Shown here in pieces: positions 3,925 to 44,056 of a stretch of DNA of 64,000 nucleotides (position 1 is its first letter; every line of letters begins with the position of its first letter). The notes under the pieces were generated by a model. That model did no database searches and was not told the DNA's origin. It saw only the letters and a program-made list of their open reading frames with translations. Origin of the DNA: Lytechinus variegatus (Eukaryota; Echinodermata; Echinoidea; Temnopleuroida; Toxopneustidae); NCBI RefSeq assembly GCF_018143015.1, contig NC_054751.1, forward strand, positions 25,340,783 through 25,404,782, read 5' to 3'. A program made the translations under genes and the position numbers.

Positions 3925-4190
3925 ACATTCATAATTCCGACGCTTCGTTATTCCGAAGGTTCGTAATTTCAAAGATTCGTAAGTCCGAAATCGAAATAAG
4001 GTTCGTTAGTCCAAAAACGAAATAAGGTTCGTAATTCCCAAGGCTCGTTAGTCCAAAAACGAAATGAGGTTCGTTAATCCGAAGGTTCGTGAGTCCGAAA
4101 ACGAAATGGGATTCGTTTATCCAAAGGTTCGTTAGTCCGAAAACGAAATAAGGTTGGTTAATCCGAAAATGAATTAAGGTTCGTGTGAAG
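3925..4190 (+). repeat. 42-bp minisatellite (left, forward array)
   Basis: About six degenerate units of 42 bp built on 'ggttcgttaatccgaa' and 'cgaaataaggttcg'. Each unit contains two short inverted pieces (ttcg...cgaa). The reverse complement of the same unit forms the array at 10612-10800. Confidence 0.85.
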
Positions 4191-4886: not shown

Positions 4887-6817
4887 TCAATAAGAATTCA
4901 GGAGAAATTTTTTGATGAGTAATTTAAATCGTATAAGATTAGCTGCCTCTTTCATTTCTCTGTCCAGAGAATTCCAGAGTTTTGGTCCTGTGAAAAATAC
5001 AGTTTTGCTAGAAAATACTGTTTTACTTTTAGGTAAGTGATAGTCATTTGATTGTCTCGTATTATATGAATGTAAAGTATTGTTTCTCATAAATTTCTTT
5101 TGTAGGACATTAGGTACACTATTTCTATCTAGCTGATACATGAATTGGAATAGTTGCAAGCGGTACAGGTCATTGATTTTAAGGATACGTTTCTGACGAA
5201 ACAATTCATCCGTATGAGCTCTAAAGGACATATTGCATATTATTCTCAGTACTTTTTTCTGAAGTAGCAAGACTTTATTTAGTCTCGTTTGAGAGGCATT
5301 ACCCCATGCCAGAATTCCATAATTAAGATATGGTAGAATTAATGCACAATACAACATGGATAGCGCCTGTGCTGGTAGAACGTATTTAAGCTTATTGATG
5401 ACTCCAATATTTCTTGACACAGTTTTGCAAGTATTGTTGATATGAGCATTCCACGTAAGCTTGTTATCAATAGTAAGACCTAAAAATTTTGTTGTTTGCA
5501 CTTCTTTGATTTCAGTATTATCTAAAAGTATTTGATGCGGTAGATGTTTCAATGAATGACTAAAAAGCATATAATTAGTTTTTTGCAGATTCAGTGACAA
5601 TTTGTTGGCTTTAATCCAGTTTGTTACTTTTTTAAATTCTGTATTCATAGTGCTCACAAGTACATGTGGATCATGGTGTGTGTAGAAAATATTGGAATCA
5701 TCAGCAAAGAGAATAAATGAGAGAACATGAGATGAATTTTTCATATCATTAACATAAAGTATAAATAACAAGGGGCCAAGAATACTACCTTGTGGAATTC
5801 CACAGGAAACTGGCCTTGTTGGAGATTCTGATTCATTTACTGTAACAAACTGAATTCTATCAGTAAGATAACTCCTAAACCATTGTAAAGCTGTCCCTCT
5901 GATACCGTAATTTGATAGCTTACATAACAGTATTTCATGATCTATTGTGTCAAACGCTTTTGAGAAGTCAAGGAATAATCCTACAGTATGATCAGAATTA
6001 TCAAAAGAAGTAGATATTTTATTTATTAATGTCAATATAGCATGAGTTGTATTATGTTTTTCTCTAAAACCAAATTGGTTATCACATATGATACTATATT
6101 TCTTAAGGAAAGCAACTGTCCTTTTATAAATGATCCTTTCAAGAATTTTTGAGAACGAAGTTAACAAAGATATTGGGCGATAATTACTAGTAATTAATTG
6201 GTCCCCCTTCTTGAAAATGGGTATAACTTTAGCTATTTTCATCTTCTTTGGGACCTGGCCAAGCTGCAATGATAAATTAAATATATGAAGCAGGGATCAG
6301 CAAGAGAATGTATAATGTTTTTCAATACTTTATTTGTAATGCCATCATATCCGGGTGTCTTTCCTGCTTTCAAATTAAATACAATCTCAAGTAATTCTTC
6401 TCTATGAACTGGAGTAAGAAATATTGAATTATCATTTTGTTTGTCCAAAAAGTCCTTAAACGAATTTTCTACAGGGATAATATTTCCAGCTAACTTTGGT
6501 CCAATTTGAGAGAAATATGAATTTAATTCATTTGCTATAGAATGAGTATCTTCAACCATATTTCCATCTACACATAATTTATTAACAGCACTAGATTTGT
6601 TAATTTTGTTTAGAGCCCCATTTATTGTTTTCCATGTATTTTTAAGGTCGTTTTTATATGATTGTAATTTTTCTGAATAAAACCTCTTTTTTGCTATTCG
6701 GAGAGTAGTTGTTAAGGTATTTTTATAAGACGTGTATCTATTCCGTGAAACATCATTTGGATTTGATATATAAGAAACATACAAATTATTTTTCCGATTG
6801 ATAGACCTTAATATCAT
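4887..6817 (-). pseudogene. LINE ORF2, reverse transcriptase part (one frameshift)
   Basis: Two overlapping frames (6817-6239 and 6269-4887) together cover the RT domain. In order they show a typical upstream block (GKTPGYDGI), then KVIPIFKKGD, SNYRPISLL, GFREKHNTTHA, LDFSKAFDTID, GIPQGSILGPLLFILYVND, the catalytic FADD (residues 188-191 of the downstream frame) and the C-terminal thumb-like region. The frames differ by one register near 6285-6300, in an A/T-rich run, where the expected protein passes from ADPC..IYL to LSLQLGQVPKK. This is a single frameshift, otherwise well conserved. Confidence 0.9.
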
Positions 6818-6820
6818 TTT

Positions 6821-7999
6821 TTAAACCCATGGTAGCTTTGGAACACGTTTATAGTCGTAATTTCGATATTTCTTTAAAGGAACACAAGAATCTAAGCAAT
6901 CATTGAAATATTTCAAAAATATGTCAAATGAGTCATCGACATTCTCTTTCGAGTTATAAACGTCAGACCAATCAACAGAGCTTAAATCTTCTTGGAGGCG
7001 TTCAATATTTTTGTCACTAAAGTTGCGACAGATCCTATATTTCTTTTCCATTTTTGCGAGTGATTGCATTGTTTGGATATGGGTAAAAATAAGAAAATGA
7101 TCAGATATGTCTGTCGTTACAATGCCAGCTTTCGGAAGAGGGTGAGAGTTACAGAATATATTATCTATAAGCGTAGCAGAATGATCAGTAATACGGGTTG
7201 GTCTAGAAATAATCGGCAAAAAAGTAGAAGTTAACATTAATTCAAGGAAATCGTTTGTTGCAGAGTGATTACTGGTCAAGAGATTAATATTGAAATCACC
7301 AGTGATGATACAATTGTTATTTATCAATTCTCCGTTTTGCAAAAGTTCATTAGTAGCAAGTAAAAAATCTTCTATACAAGAAGTTTGAGGAGGTCGGTAG
7401 ATGACACCTATTAGAGTTTTCTTATCTTTTTGAAGTTTTACTTCTACAAATAAGGATTCGATGATATCATTCATATATTCAAATTCATGTCTAATTGCAT
7501 AATCAAATGAAGACGGAATATATAATGCTAGTCCACCTCCAATTTTATTTTTCCTATTGTTTATAACAATATCATAATTTGGGATGGTGCATAAGGAATT
7601 CGGTGATTCCGTGAACCAAGTTTCAGTAAGAGCAATGATTGGGGGATTGGCAAATTGTGTATTTTCTAATAATAATCGTAATTTCTCGAAGTTTTGGTTA
7701 GCGCTTCTTATATTCAAATGCAAAATAAAAACATCATCTTCTCCAATCAATTTAGCATAGTCTTTGAATGAATTTTCTGTATAATATGGAGAAGAGGAAA
7801 GATTGTATGCTTTATCATGAATATCGAATTCAACTTGAAGTTCATCAAAATTATTTGTAAGAATATCAGTAGAAAATCTATCAAATGGAGTATGATGATT
7901 TGAGATAATATTGCTTTTATCCTGACTTGGATGATTTAGTAATAAGAAATCATCATTATTCAGATGATAAAATGGGAAATCACGCATATTATCCACCAT
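6821..7999 (-). pseudogene. LINE ORF2, APE-type endonuclease part
   Basis: 392 codons in the same frame as the RT segment that follows. The endonuclease motifs appear in order: HLNIRSANQNF (metal-binding Asn), ALTETW (catalytic Glu), GGGLALYI, GVIYRPP, GDFNINL (Asp/Asn) and SDHFLIF (Asp-His). A single TAA at 6821-6823 ends the frame exactly where family members read on (PWV then K-ILRSI-KN), so this is one nonsense change, not a natural stop. The product would nick target DNA during target-primed reverse transcription. Confidence 0.9.
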
Positions 8000-8368
8000 T
8001 ATGAAATATAATATATTGCCATTTTAAATCAAAATCTTTGTAAGCTGAGCATATAAAGCATCTTTTAGATTTAATACCGTCATGACCCCAAATTCGAGTT
8101 TGAAAAATACTGCAGTTGTAATAGTTAACAAAATAAAGATTATTTGATACAATTATTAACGGTCGATGAAGAATATTTGCACACAAAAATAAGTAAAATG
8201 ACCTCCATGAAATGTCTGGTATTGAAACATTATTGAAAGGGCAGTGAAAGAATGCAAAATATACCACGGAAAATAACACAATTATTGATCGATGCGAAAA
8301 ATTTTGTGACGTGAATTTCATAAGAAATAAAAAGAATACTGGAAAATGGAAAAACATGGATAGTCCTT

Positions 8369-10611: not shown

Positions 10612-10800
10612 ACCGAATATTTCATTTTTCGGATTAACGAACCTTCGGAACAACGAACCTTATTTCGTTTTCGGATTAACGAACCTTCGGAACAACGAAC
10701 CTTATTTCGTTTTCGGATTAACTAACCTTCTGAACAACGAACTTTATTTCGTTTTCGGATTATCGAACCTTCGGAATAACGAACATTTGGAATAACGCCA
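10612..10800 (-). repeat. 42-bp minisatellite (right, inverted array)
   Basis: Four units of 42 bp, the first two almost identical: 'ttcggattaacgaaccttcg' plus 'gaacaacgaaccttatttcgtt'. Because 42 is a multiple of three, the array stays open in two frames (a repeated RINEPSEQRTLF-type peptide), which should not be taken for a gene. It is the reverse complement of the unit at 3925-4190. Confidence 0.9.
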
Positions 10801-12210: not shown

Positions 12211-12655
12211 CTAATACAGTCGCATTTTCCCTTTGACTCCAAGAGCTTGTAGTTTACTAAGAAGTCGGTGATGGGGGACAGTGTCAAAGGCTTTCATAAA
12301 ATCCATGAACACTACATCTGTACTACCACCATCATCCAAAATGCGGGTCCACTCATCCAGGACTTCTAAAAACTGTGTAGTACAAGAACGCCCAGCAATA
12401 AAATCATGCTGATGAACAGAGAGCAGCTCATTCTCCTGGAGATGACGAATAAGTTGTGTCCTTACCAAGCTTTCAAGTAACTTACAAATAACACATGTTA
12501 GACTTACATGCCTGTAGTTGCTACCTTCTGATTTGCTACCCTTTTTGAATACCGGGGTCACATTAGCACTCGTCCAGTCTTCAGGCAAAACACCTTGTTC
12601 TACACTTTTCTGAAACAGAATGGAAATGGGTAAGCAAAGTACATCAGCTAATTGT
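12211..12655 (-). pseudogene. CR1-type LINE reverse-transcriptase fragment
   Basis: The open part (12588-12211) reads LPEDWTSANVTPVFKKGS, SNYRHVSLTCVICKLLE, GRSCTTQFLEVLDEWT and VFMDFMKAFDTVPHHRLL, the fingers and motif A of a CR1 RT. Upstream in the same frame to 12655 is QLADVLCLPISILFQKSVEQG. It breaks off at 12211 at 'KLQALGVKG', before the catalytic motif C, and abuts an unrelated LINE fragment. It is a dead remnant. Confidence 0.85.
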
Positions 12656-38246: not shown

Positions 38247-39073
38247 ATGAAGATGGCAGCCTCCTGTGTCCATCATGTGCAATTAGCTGTGAGAAACGGG
38301 TCCCGATATGTGCATAAATTGATATCAAATGTCAATTTTAAGCTATTTGCAGAGAGGAGAGATGTGGACAGCACTGACTGGGTGCTCAGAAGTGGGTCAT
38401 CTATATTTGTAGTGAGTGAACATCGAGCTGAAGTCTTACGGAACCCGGCATCGCAAGTTCCCCGGAACTCCGGGCGAGATGATTGCTCCGCCAACCCGCT
38501 GACGTCACCCACCATGACACCTGCATTTTCTACACGGCTTTCAGAAGTTCATCATCTAGGATACGTATCACCACCTATTTCAACTCATAATCTGCGTTTA
38601 GAATTGCCATCTAGTGCTCTTGGAAATATAGATACAGTTTGCAATGTCGCTTTTGAAGTGTGTAATGTTTCTGCAACAGTAGAACTTGCGCAGAAAGGAG
38701 GCGCTAAAGTTTTGCTAGAACCAACGTTAATCAAAGACTCAAGTGGATATGTGACTGTTGCTGCAATCAAATCTTGTGTTGGGAATGTGGTACATACAAT
38801 TCTAAATACAGAACATTATGATGGTGTATTTTTACCTGGATTTAGTAAAGTATCGGATTTGGATTTGTGCAATAATTCCATTTCATCACACAACATTTGC
38901 GATGACTCTCCACAAAGTTGTCAGTCAGACATTGATGATCATGTAAAGCCTGAATCAAAGGAAACCGTAACACATTTTGATCATGTTACATTTGCCATTC
39001 CAACGGGATCTTCAAATAAAGTTCTAGATTGGTATGAAAAATGTTTTGGGATGAGGAGATTTTGGTTGGATAG
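38247..39073 (+). CDS. hpdl: HPDL exon 1
   Basis: Starts at the first ATG (38247); a second ATG two codons on (38253) would give MAASC..., closer to the start of vertebrate HPDL. The exon encodes the whole N-terminal domain ([27 protein letters not shown]) and the beginning of the catalytic domain with His246. The donor is 'GATAG|gtaaga'; the frame closes four bases later in the intron, which confirms the border. The region after about residue 70 ([11 protein letters not shown]...) is a family-atypical Ser/Pro/Thr-rich insert. Confidence 0.93.
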
Positions 39074-42000
39074 GTAAGATCAAGATTTAATGAAAGTTTT
39101 GTACAATGTTAGTTTAGCAATCCTTATAAAAGTCAAATGAAGATGACAACAGAGTTTGTTATGAATCGCGATATCATGATTTCAATTGAATTTGTTTTAT
39201 ACTTCACTGATCTGCAAAACATGGCCATCAGCATAGCTAGATGAATGAATAACCGAGAATGTATTTTGAGGAGTAATATATAGGCCTATGAAGTAGAACA
39301 GAATTACTAAAAATTTTCAGAGTATTCTCATATGTCCCGAATATTCATCCACAAAAGAAAAATGACTAAGGTACATGTAGAGCTAATGCTGAATTAAAAA
39401 TGCCGAGCCAATTTTAACTCAAAAATTGAAATTTCCTGCATAAAGTATAGTAAATCAAGGTATCGTAGGGCCCTGTGTAATGTATCAAGGCTGTTTTGTT
39501 TACTGTTTTTGTTTACACTTTAATATTTTTAATGTAGTGACATAATAGAGCTACTAGTACTTAGAGATCAAAGTTACAGATGAGTCATTTCAGAGGAACA
39601 ACTAACATTTTCTTTTCTTCTGTAGAAACGAAGACAAGTTAGAAGGATTCCTGGTTCGAGGGAGCAATGTAGGTCTGCGGATGAAGGCCATGGAATACTG
39701 GAGGTGTGCAGAAACTGGTTTGGTTTTCTCTGAGAAGTCTAGCAATGAGAGAAGGAATCACAGACAAGGAACAAACATGATGTTTGTTGTAGCTGAGGCT
39801 CTACCAGAACAAGGTATTGCTATGTTATGATTAACAGACAGGATGGTGCTAGATGGGGCATGGCATCAATCCCTCTGATATTTTGAATGAAAGGGAGAGG
39901 GAAAATATGAAAAGGGAAGAATGAAAGAATAATGATAATATGGGCATATTTAACCAGGGTAGCCACTTCATTTTGGAAAACTGTTCTACCAGTGGGCCCT
40001 TGCTATTATTAGAAGAAAGAAAGAGTTTGGATATTGAATCCATTCCCCATTCTACAACAGACCCATCTAATCCAGACGGAAAGTTGTTTCCAATCAAGAA
40101 AAATAATCCAGTTTATGTTACTGTGGAAACTCTAATTATGTAACTTTTATTTGACATTTAGGAATCAAGTGAACTGAATTAAAGTTCAAATATCAGAGTG
40201 TTTGGATATTAGAACTATGAAAAAAAGCAATGTCAGTACTTACAGTCTTACTTTCATTGTATAGCTTGGGAATTCTGCTAGTCGAGAGGTTATGCAATAT
40301 TTGACAATGAAATCAGCAAGTCTTTAAATATTCTTTCCTTGCTTCTAGGACCTAATCAAGTTGAGACGTTCATACAGCAGCATGGTGGGCCTGGCGTTCA
40401 ACACATTGGTCTCTATGCACCTGATATCGAGTACACAGTGGCCTTACTGAAGGAGCGAGGTTTGGACTTCATGGTTCCTCCAAGCACTTACTACACTGAG
40501 GTTAGTATATGACACTGGGGAATGTTTAAGTTAGGTGTTCAAATCTGTTGTTGATTTTTTTTTTTTTTGGGGGGGGGGATATCTACACCAGCCATAGCAC
40601 CAGACTTGAAATGAGGTGTTGATTTCAGGGTGCCTCCAAGCACTTGCATCACTGAGATGAGCAAATGACACTTCAATTTTGATGTTAAAGGAGAATGAAA
40701 CCTTTGGAACAATTAGGCTTGTGTCAAAACAGAAAAATCTAAGAATAAGAACAAAGAAAGTTTGAGAAAAATCGGACAAATAATGATAAAGTTATAAGCA
40801 TTTGAATACGGTATTGCAATCACTAATGCTAAGGAGATCCTCCTATTGGCAATGCGACAAGGATGTTTGATGTCACATGTGAACAACTTTCTGGTGATGG
40901 ACTATAAAATGCCCCCAAAATGATTCTTTTTGCTTTTTCTTATGGTGATACAAACTCTTCATCCATGATGTATTCTTTAAAAATCTGTATTACATGCCCT
41001 CCTATAGAAAGAAAACATGATCTACTGATGGATGTGATAAGAGAGGCAGTTTAAGTGAAAAATATGCTAAAGTAATGGGGAGAGTTGTTCACAAGTGACA
41101 TCACACATCTTTGTCGCATTGCCAATGTGAGGATCTCCATAGCTTTAGTGATCGCAATATTCAAATGCTGATCACTTTTTCATTATTTGTCTGATTTTTC
41201 TCAAACTTTCATTGATCTGTTTCTTTGATTTTTCTGTTTTCAAACAAGCTATCTTGTTCAAAAGGTTTCATTCTCCTTTAACATCTGGTGTTGAGTGATA
41301 CTTACACCAGTCATAACACCAAACTTGAAAGTAGGCTGGTGTTTAGATTGATGTCACTAGGTGCTGAACAACTGCCAGAAGAGGCATCCATATGAAATAC
41401 TTCAAGAATAAGAAGGTATCATTAAGCCAATAGATTTAACTAATTTTTTCTATTCCAAATAATTTTGTTATCCTGGAACCTGGCCTTGGCCTTGATGATA
41501 ATGTGGCCTTGTCCTTGGCCTCGGTTGTCTAGGCCTTTTTCTTATAGTTCCAAAGTCCTTTGGATTGGCCTCAAACAGTCTTTCCTTGGTGTTGGCCTGA
41601 ACTTTCAGGCCTGGTGCACAACACTGACCATAGCAGGAATAGTAGTAGGCTTAGCCTACTGAATCACGCTCTCAGCATCAACACAATCTTTGCCCAGTTT
41701 TAAAGTCAACTCTTTGAACTTCCAAGGACTTGCACATTTTTGTCTCACCTGCATAGCAGAGTGAGACTATAGGCGCCGCTTTCAACATTCAACGGCGGCG
41801 GCGGCGGCGTCAACATCAAATCTTAACCTGAGGTTAAGTTTTTGAAATGACACCATAACTTTGAAAGTATATAGACCTAATTCATGAAACTTGGCCATAA
41901 GGTTAATCAAGTATTACTGAACATCCTATTAGAGTTTCATGTCACATGACCAAGGTCAAAGGTCATTTAGGGTCAATGAACTTAGACCATGTTGGAGGAA

Positions 42001-44056
42001 TCAACATCAAAATCTTAACCTGAGGTTAAGTTTTTGAAATGACGTCATAACTTATAAAGTATATGGACCTAGTTCATGAAACTTAGACAGACATAAGGTT
42101 AATCAAGTATCACTGAATATCCTGCATGAGTTTTATGTCACATGACCAAGGTCAAAGGTCATTTAGGGTCAATGAACTTTGGCCAAATTGGGGGTATCTG
42201 TTGAATTCCCATCATAACTTTGAAAGTTTATGGATCTGATTCATGAAACTTGGACATGATAGTAATCAAGCATCACTGAACATTTTGTGCAAGTTTCAGG
42301 TCTCATGATTAAGGTCAAAGGTCATTTAGGGTCAATGAACTTTGGCCATGTTGGGTTTTTTTGTTGGATACCATATCTCTGTAAGTTTATTGGTCTAGTT
42401 CATAAAAAGTGGACATACAAGAGTAACCATGTATCACTGAACATCTTGTGTGAGTTAGAGTAGTTATCAAAGTCAGCACAGCTGCTATATTGAACTGCAT
42501 GATGCAGGTGAGACGGCCAGAGGCATTCCACTTGTTCTATAAACATACTTGTATGTATTTCTATTCTTTATGACAAACTGAATTTGTATGAATTAATGTT
42601 TACAAAAATGACTAAATCGCTGAAATGGAAGAAAATAAATGTATATAGAGAAGAGGTACATGTATTATTCCAAATGATGAGAGGGTGATTCAATCTACAC
42701 AGGACATTAAAAGTTTAAACAACACCTTTGAATGAAAATGTGTCTATAGGTTGGAAAGCTGGAGGAGATGAAAGTGGTAGGGAAGGATCCATCCGCCCTC
42801 AAGGAACTTGGCATCTTACTTGATGCAGAAGATTTCCAAGACTACATAGATGATGATGCCCAGGATAGATTGGATTTGGAGGACCCTAAAATCAGGTAAA
42901 CACAGAATTTTTTCGAAAACAATGTAAAGCTGAAGTTCCTCTTGGGATGGATGGAAACTCCAAGGTTCAGTCCACCCCAACAACAATCTAATTTGAATAA
43001 AAAGAGCAAACTTTCCATTACTCTGACAATGTTACCAAAATCGGATGTTAAACAGGAAACAATGTCAATTTTAGAGTTTTACCTGTTCACCCCCCCCCCT
43101 AAAAAAAACCTGCAGCAAAGTTGAGAGATGATGTTGTCTCACACTCACTATTTTGTAAGTACATGTATTGTATAATATTTATATTTGTGTAGATTTGACA
43201 AGGAGGAAGAAGCACAACAAAATGAATCCAACAATGATTCACATACAAGTAATGAGTGAAGAACTTAATATTTCATATATAATGCAAGTATTCACACAAC
43301 TTTTCTTGTATATCACTTTCAAACATAACCCTTTACAATAAATTCTTCTGAACAATGCATGCAAGTGCTCACACAGCACTTTATTGACATCATTTTCAAG
43401 TGTAAATATGTAATCTACTTATCTGAACAATCCCACAGGCATCTTGTGCAAGTGTTCACACAGCTGTTCTTCATTGATATCAATTTCAAGATTAAACCTA
43501 TGCTAATTTTCTAATCTGAACAACCGAATAGGTATCTTATGGAAGTGTTCACACAGCCCTTCTTCATCAATGTCACTTTAAACTTTGAAACATAAACCTC
43601 TATTATTCGTCTAATCTGAACAACCCCACAGGTGTCTTAGGCAAGTGTTCACACAGCCCTTCTATATTGATATAAATTTCAACTTTCAAGCAGAAACCTT
43701 TAATAATCTAATATGAACAACCCCACAGGCATCCTATGCAAGTGTTCACACAGCCCTTCTTCATTGATATAAATTTTAACTTTTATTTGAATCACAAATG
43801 TTTAATAATCTTCTATTCTGAACAACCCCACAGGTATCTAATGCAAGTGTTCACACGGCCCTTCTTTGATCGAGATACATTCTTCCTGGAGGTGATCCAG
43901 AGGCAGGGAGCTTGTGGGTTCGGCGCAGGCAATATAAAAGCTCTCTGGAGATCCGTTGAGGCTTACATGGTGCAGAAAGAGGCTTCGGAGAAGGAGGCCC
44001 AGGAGGAGCCTTCCGAGAAGGAGCCAGAAAAATCAAACGAGTACTTACATTACTAG
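38247..44056 (+). CDS. hpdl: HPDL: 4-hydroxyphenylpyruvate dioxygenase-like protein
   Basis: Five exons (38247-39073, 39626-39813, 40349-40500, 42750-42895, 43834-44056) splice in phase to 511 residues. The fold is the two-domain vicinal-oxygen-chelate dioxygenase. Iron ligands expected from HPD-family enzymes are His246 (FDHVTFAIP), His357 ([12 protein letters not shown]) and Glu457 ([22 protein letters not shown]). Motifs shared specifically with vertebrate HPDL include FLPGF-KVS, GILLD, LMQVFTR-FF-DTFFLE and RQGA-GFG-GNI-ALW-SV. Human HPDL is mitochondrial and makes 4-hydroxymandelate for the coenzyme Q head group, so the same role is inferred here. The protein is longer than human HPDL (371 residues): about 50 extra residues in the first domain, an acidic insert at the end of exon 4 and an acidic Glu/Lys/Ser tail. 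Classical HPD of tyrosine breakdown is the main alternative but fits the motifs less well. Confidence 0.93.
39626..39813 (+). CDS. hpdl: HPDL exon 2
   Basis: The acceptor 'ttcttctgtag' ends at 39625 and the donor is 'CAAG|gtattg'. The frame reads [25 protein letters not shown] and ends [14 protein letters not shown]. It begins with the last base of a split Arg codon and ends with the first base of a Gly codon. It corresponds to the beta strands between the first and second iron ligands. Confidence 0.92.
39953..40016 (-). repeat. SINE family A tail fragment in HPDL intron 2
   Basis: 'ccagggtagccacttcattt' and 'tctaccagtgggcccttgct' followed by attatta match the tail region at 649-715 of the SINE copy near the window start. 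Only the tail is present. Confidence 0.5.
40349..40500 (+). CDS. hpdl: HPDL exon 3
   Basis: The acceptor 'ccttgcttctag' ends at 40348 and the donor is 'ACTGAG|gttagt'. It encodes [22 protein letters not shown] and ends in the [10 protein letters not shown] substrate-pocket region. His357 in VQHIGLY is the second iron ligand. It ends in phase 0. Confidence 0.93.
40689..41278. mobile_element. TTAA hairpin MITE (family 2) in HPDL intron 3
   Basis: Flanked by TTAA at 40685-40688 and 41279-41282, with arms matching the copy at 18274-18807 ('aggagaatgaaacctttgga', 'ggtttcattctcct'). The interior word 'gatgtttgatgtcacatgtg' is mirrored in the right arm. It is non-coding. Confidence 0.9.
41742..42514. 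repeat. Inverted-end element with four ~165-195 bp tandem units, HPDL intron 3
   Basis: Ends: gtctcacctgcat on the left and atgcaggtgagac on the right. Between them, a (ggc)n patch leads into four degenerate direct units, each of the form 'aactttgaaagt-ta-ggacct', 'ttcatgaaactt', 'tcactgaacat', 'aaggtcaaaggtcatttagg'. Three units contain the exact word AGGTCAAAGGTCA (41953, 42149, 42312). No ORF of interest. I do not know the transposon class; related units lie at 63505-63850. Confidence 0.8.
42750..42895 (+). CDS. hpdl: HPDL exon 4
   Basis: The acceptor 'gtgtctatag' ends at 42749 and the donor is 'ATCAG|gtaaac'. It reads [30 protein letters not shown], followed by an acidic segment ([18 protein letters not shown]) that lengthens the loop before the last conserved block compared with vertebrate HPDL. 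It ends with two bases of an Arg codon. Confidence 0.92.
42960..43158. mobile_element. Decayed MITE family 1 fragment in HPDL intron 4
   Basis: 'agtccaccccaacaa', 'tttgaataaaaagagcaaac', 'ccaaaatcggatgtta' and 'ctcacactcactattttgt' follow the arm of the 11223-11822 copy in order. The remainder is scrambled, with a C-run at 43091. Confidence 0.65.
43193..43259 (+). other. hpdl: Possible alternative last exon of HPDL
   Basis: After 'atatttgtgtag' the sequence splices in phase to exon 4. It adds an acidic tail of 21 residues ([20 protein letters not shown] and E) and then stops (TGA 43257-43259). Such a product would lack the third iron ligand Glu457. The tail's Glu/Lys/Ser make-up resembles that of the normal C terminus. 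Splice signal and phase support it; nothing else does. Confidence 0.3.
43281..43820 (+). repeat. Tandem array of exon-5 acceptor copies in HPDL intron 4
   Basis: Six degraded units start at about 43281, 43351, 43426, 43519, 43619 and 43716, with the seventh being the true exon 5 border (43821). The later units are 93-105 bp. Each holds 'ctgaacaaccccacaggtat'-like acceptor sequence followed by 'atgcaagtgttcacacagcc' and 'cttcttcattgatat', i.e. copies of the polypyrimidine/AG and first ~17 codons of exon 5. Similarity to the real exon is highest in the last two units. Confidence 0.9.
43834..44056 (+). CDS. hpdl: HPDL exon 5 (terminal)
   Basis: The acceptor 'caaccccacag' ends at 43833. The exon reads [20 protein letters not shown], with Glu457 as the third iron ligand, then [20 protein letters not shown], and ends in a charged tail ([20 protein letters not shown]) with stop TAG at 44054-44056. 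The frame is also open upstream through 43736 because the last array unit is in frame with the exon. Confidence 0.93.

Follow-up and report, generated by a model that had tools for sequence, protein, structure and literature searches.

The host gene and its surroundings

The window, by which we mean the whole analysed stretch of 64,000 nucleotides, carries on its plus strand a gene of five exons that, when joined, give an open frame of 509 residues counted from an assumed start ATG:

38253..39073, plus strand: HPDL exon 1, from the assumed start ATG
39626..39813, plus strand: HPDL exon 2, from the joined reading frame
40349..40500, plus strand: HPDL exon 3, from the joined reading frame
42750..42895, plus strand: HPDL exon 4, from the joined reading frame
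43834..44056, plus strand: HPDL exon 5, the last coding exon, from the frame and the alignment with HPD chains

In the PDB, the product matches chains of 4-hydroxyphenylpyruvate dioxygenase (HPD), with 34 sequences and a best E of 3.9e-33, which bears out the preliminary description of the gene as an HPD relative. Pfam identifies Glyoxalase in the whole protein and found nothing in two fragments of it. Exon 5 aligns with ..TLFLEVIQR.., the corresponding strand of human HPD, and the Glu of this strand we take to be the third iron ligand. A separate, more HPD-like gene (L004) lies at C2:68.37 Mb; it is a weak match (E 0.028), its exon reads near the human HPD chain, and it reads through the exon 4/5 position, where no intron is present. 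Because this second gene exists, the name HPDL given in the preliminary description is provisionally kept for the gene in the window, which is present once in the assembly.

Several other repeats accompany the gene. Intron 3 contains a tandem repeat at 41810–42456, with units of about 160–196 bp and a ccaaggtcaaaggtcattt motif, and an inverted pair is found at 40681–40891/41080–41285 (86%). On the minus strand, 4890–8023 and 12214–12654 contain frames for reverse transcriptase and endonuclease like those of a non-LTR-type element, and 42-bp tandem repeats lie in opposite orientation at 3998–4164 and 10618–10784.

A tandem array across the intron 4/exon 5 boundary

Immediately upstream of exon 5, a repeat search found five in-register copies of 96 nt starting at 43394, 43487, 43587, 43684 and 43789, spaced by 93, 100, 97 and 105 nt; the last copy is the true junction between intron 4 and exon 5. 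The array has a 29-nt core that occurs seven times, with the two extra, degraded occurrences at 43282 and 43359. TRF reports a period of 100 with 4.6 copies, 76% matches and a score of 464, and the sequence within 60 nt on either side of the exon 5 acceptor, compared with the 2 kb upstream, reaches a score of 102, the highest score among 100 dinucleotide-shuffled sequences being 30. The repeat search, TRF and the shuffle test thus agree that the array proposed at 43281–43833 is real, and the AG positions 43438, 43531, 43631, 43728 and 43833 are exactly those first given. The units are as follows (the slash marks the junction):

43276..43310, plus strand: unit -1, degraded, without acceptor
43359..43387, plus strand: unit 0, degraded, acceptor gone
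43394..43489, plus strand: unit 1, decoy acceptor with AG ending at 43438
43487..43582, plus strand: unit 2, decoy acceptor with AG ending at 43531 (AG/GT)
43587..43682, plus strand: unit 3, decoy acceptor with AG ending at 43631 (AG/GT)
43684..43779, plus strand: unit 4, decoy acceptor with AG ending at 43728; exon 5 frame kept (35 additional amino acids)
43789..43884, plus strand: authentic boundary, acceptor AG ending at 43833

The units are arranged head-to-tail and span an intron–exon boundary of their own host gene. It had been proposed that every unit repeats the exon 5 acceptor together with the start of the exon; this is so for the four full units of about 100 bp, each of which consists of the exon 5 3′ splice site and about 45–50 nt of exon, but not for the two outermost. 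Units 0 and -1 are older remnants that lack the AG kept in units 1–4.

Tandem units of about 100 bp that decay outwards are also found in ordinary intronic minisatellites, from which the HPDL unit differs in holding a functional exon boundary and coding sequence. Insertion of a satellite or of a repeat of transposon origin into the intron, the alternative against which the preliminary description had asked its reading to be checked, might be suggested by the tandem repeat nearby in intron 3, but the unit includes the exon's own coding start and whole-genome searches return only the HPDL array. In these searches of 869,567,369 bases in 33 contigs, which skip very common words, the 580-bp array matched only itself at E ≤ 1e-3 and a single unit at E ≤ 10 gave five matches, all within the array. 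At the sensitivity these searches reach, we give such an insertion almost no weight.

Growth of the array

Identity to exon 5 is 0.76 for unit 3, 0.73 for unit 4, 0.70 for unit 2, 0.67 for unit 1, 0.49 for unit 0 and 0.45 for unit -1. The suggestion that the nearest copies are the most exon-like therefore holds as a rough fall with distance, but unit 4 is closer to unit 3 (0.81) than to exon 5. At eight exon-side positions the four full units are alike and all differ from exon 5. The exon 5 state looks ancestral at five of these (positions 35, 45, 49, 51 and 52), since the HPD-like gene, read by eye, agrees there with exon 5; the final three may fall outside the duplicated segment. Because the units share states that are missing in exon 5, most of them seem to descend from one already diverged copy, not each from the exon, and the array would have grown largely unit from unit. 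The eight shared states speak against the earlier proposal of repeated duplication of the exon's own start. A tree of the units has low support (18–74), and identity among units 1–4 is not significantly different on the exon side and the intron side (0.824 versus 0.728; 1282 of 20000 permutations).

The sequence at the two ends of intron 4 also bears on where the intron itself came from. Exon 4 ends in AG and exon 5 starts with GT, the HPD-like paralogue in the same genome has no intron at this position, and human HPDL is presumably intronless. These points would accord with the Rogers model, in which intron 4 was gained by tandem duplication of an AG/GT exon stretch and the array is the remnant of that event. 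The model predicts, however, that the start of the intron resembles the start of exon 5, and the exon 4/intron 4 boundary shows no such match: donor 4 compared with the 2 kb starting 60 nt to its right, which contain the array and exon 5, scores 21 against a shuffle mean of 21.4. Intron gain by tandem duplication has been described in Drosophila and, in excerpts of that paper, shares with HPDL a local AG/GT duplication and repeated splice signals (PMC2891723); the piece duplicated in HPDL differs in containing the end of an existing intron. Gain of intron 4 in this manner is accordingly judged unlikely.

Boundary copies at other exons

A second HPDL boundary has also been copied:

40613..40672, plus strand: copy of the exon 3 donor boundary in intron 3; original at 40457–40516; GT changed to AT

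This copy lies 156 bp downstream of the original, with 80% identity over 60 nt and a score of 60 against a shuffle maximum of 30. Its decoy donor reads GAG/ATGAGC, and splicing there would lead to a stop. The remaining six of the eight HPDL junctions gave nothing above the best shuffle.

Exons of two other families were surveyed in the same genome. The myosin-head sample comprises 69 of 72 matches (30, and 39 of the remaining 42), each with flanks of 1500 bases. The kinesin sample, with flanks of 450 bases, comprises 32 of 124 matches, namely 31 of the first 37 listed and one from lower in the list, with six members of look-alike pairs passed over. The survey is non-random. With 65 of 209 and 122 of 251 candidates scored, both lists of matches give minimum numbers; look-alike pairs among the myosins mean that not every edge is independent, and exon edges are known only to about 15 nt. 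Many kinesin and myosin exons occur twice per contig with equal or near-equal scores (C2, C5, C6, C9, C12, C13 and C16), which points either to segmental duplication or to haplotypes that the assembly did not collapse.

After inspection, boundary-spanning copies were found at seven of 202 edges of 101 loci, a count that includes L108 although its copy extends only 7 nt past the junction and fails the spanning rule. The edges are the acceptors of L032 and L036 (myosin) and of L081, L109 and L112 (kinesin) and the donors of L108 and L109 (kinesin). Two of the acceptors have arrays like that of HPDL: L036 has three spanning copies with AG and a fourth in which the AG is displaced by one base, and L081 has two spanning copies with AG. 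The second acceptor copy of L109 is weak (score 32 against a threshold of 29), and this locus has a pair at C6:46053410 (96% over query positions 1–320 of 471). Three candidates were set aside: L096, where a repeat of dispersed appearance overlaps the profile match; L041, where the copy abuts the AG without including it; and L101, an exon-internal piece.

The automatic test, which still counts L096 and L041, flagged nine of 202 edges and 69 of 2020 random flank points (40 of 1380 myosin, 29 of 640 kinesin), a background of about 3.4%; the excess at exon edges is not significant (Fisher p 0.42). Kinesin alone leans above background, with six of 64 edges flagged against 29 of 640 random points (p 0.12). 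Exon edges are thus neither clearly enriched nor clearly depleted in boundary copies.

Of 14 spanning acceptor copies, 13 retain AG, and none of the three donor copies retains GT (Fisher p 0.006). The contrast involves small numbers, drawn from nine copied boundaries of which two belong to HPDL; it was spotted post hoc, counts non-independent copies within one array and includes one donor copy that fails the spanning rule. Identity at the other bases of the spanning acceptor copies is 83% (708 of 854), and AG retention is somewhat above the expectation for plain decay, though the local alignments are anchored near the junction.

Splice signals and the decoy acceptors

A rough acceptor model was built on 47 myosin sites picked by rule; in at least one case, L032, the picked site is not the true acceptor. 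With this model the exon 5 acceptor is the best of the five (8.4), and the decoys of units 3, 1, 4 and 2 (7.5, 6.5, 5.4 and 4.5) fall within the range of the 47 picked sites (-4.8 to 13.7); the acceptors of HPDL exons 2, 3 and 4 score 10.5, 10.2 and 0.0. Judged by the branch-point consensus, units 2–4 carry a branch-point-like word, CTAAT, at the place where exon 5 has CTATT, and local signals alone would for this reason leave use of the decoys possible. Each full unit also contains a second AG within CACACAG (43463, 43556, 43656 and 43753), where exon 5 has CACACGG; these score low as acceptors (-0.6 to 1.8). A further acceptor-like AG, ending at 43192 (score 8.2), lies a short way upstream of the array and is followed by an in-frame stretch, 43193–43260, and then a stop, which is possibly an alternative last exon or may be due to chance.

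Splicing at the exon 5 boundary yields the complete HPDL frame with nothing inserted, which none of the other acceptors tried does. From 43728, the frame is open through to exon 5 with 35 extra residues, while 43438, 43531 and 43631 shift the frame and meet a stop within about 30 codons. Stops in the last exon do not ordinarily expose transcripts to exon-junction-dependent decay; decoy transcripts would have their stops there, so their removal by decay would not be expected. It is most likely that 43833 is still the site normally used and that the decoys are tolerated.

The decoys could instead be functional, the array tuning HPDL output through the 35-residue insertion from 43728 and through early stops at the other three sites that remove the last iron ligand. 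The open frame from 43728, the prompt stops past the other junctions, decoy scores inside the acceptor range of the rough model and the retention of AG in acceptor copies would all be in keeping with such a role. Against it, the unit spacings share no frame, three of the four decoys truncate the protein, and the insertion would land just before the conserved VFT..F..E strand. The same kind of structure also occurs in unrelated genes, where its frequency does not clearly exceed background, and in lancelets, where such structures are known, the cases in the available excerpts are reported without aberrant mRNA (PMC3087553, PMC3902484), with data suggesting that regular splicing is undisturbed (PMC3087553). 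We therefore consider a tuning function quite improbable.

Tolerance might also be secured by recursive splicing, in which the AG/GT units (43531 and 43631) would regenerate a donor and the remainder would be removed in a second, self-correcting step. GT does follow AG in units 2 and 3 and in exon 5, but units 1 and 4 read AG/GC, and GTATCT and GTGTCT rate as weak donors by the donor consensus. The arrays of the myosin locus L036 and the kinesin locus L081 read AG/GG and AG/GC, so tolerance in general would need no recursive splicing, and we regard this mechanism as very improbable at HPDL.

Relation to lancelet mirages

Comparable structures are on record, the original report, on Adh3, reportedly being that of Canestro in 2002. 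They have been named 'mirages' in lancelet globin genes and Adh3 (PMC3087553), with troponin C and PGBD5 added later (PMC3902484), so the preliminary view that no standard feature type describes the array cannot be upheld. As excerpts of these two papers describe them, the lancelet mirages (Adh3, BflGb6, BflGb9, troponin C and PGBD5) share with the HPDL array tandem copies spanning an intron–exon boundary. They occur at 5′ or 3′ boundaries, with AG or GT in many, not all, copies, as in HPDL, and in both groups the edge units stand outside the homogenisation of the inner units (PMC3087553, PMC3902484). The HPDL unit length fits the span of known mirages (Adh3 10–72 bp, PGBD5 60 and 108 bp, globins 150–160 bp; PMC3087553, PMC3902484). 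In the same excerpts, a lancelet cluster has six and three units in two haplotypes, and mirages are proposed as raw material for new introns (PMC3087553).

The four full HPDL units and exon 5 are 67–81% identical and so more diverged than lancelet BflGb6 (81–100% in the excerpted data), and the array is unlike the lancelet cases excerpted in belonging to another phylum, the echinoderms, and in its position in front of the last coding exon. The phylum shows in the mitochondrial contig of the assembly, C33, where a COX1 that is open in genetic code 9 precedes tRNA-Arg and, as identified by eye, nad4L, cox2 and atp8; this gene order is that of echinoderms, and the animal is probably a sea urchin. 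Titles and abstract openings of open-licence papers yielded no mirages outside lancelets, which is weak evidence of absence; PMC3188502, considered as a further report, only cites an unrelated title containing the word. As far as this literature search goes, the HPDL array is a mirage in a new phylum.

Discussion

With a probability of about 0.85, we interpret the HPDL array as a mirage, in which an intron–exon boundary has been tandemly duplicated in the manner of a minisatellite, with a history of duplication and decay and with 43833 normally used. A local tandem duplication would once have copied about 100 bp across the intron 4/exon 5 junction. The copy still joined to the full exon would have kept the coding and splicing job, and the upstream copy would have become intron and multiplied, mostly by one unit giving rise to another through what we infer was slippage or unequal exchange, while the outermost units decayed and lost their acceptors. 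Neutral tandem duplication that included the splice junction by chance is the simplest account, and the array is probably near-neutral and mostly harmless.

The presence of mirages in echinoderm HPDL, myosin and kinesin loci suggests that they are not a lancelet oddity. A series of near-identical acceptors ahead of a single exon also offers a direct way of asking how the right AG is selected. It is conceivable, and we put it forward tentatively as somewhat doubtful, that boundary mirages occur genome-wide in this echinoderm at a few percent of exon edges, with acceptor copies multiplying and keeping AG and donor copies losing GT. If so, decoy donors would be purged and decoy acceptors tolerated, and the arrays would both provide a natural test of spliceosome choice among near-identical neighbouring acceptors and keep supplying alternative starts for exons.
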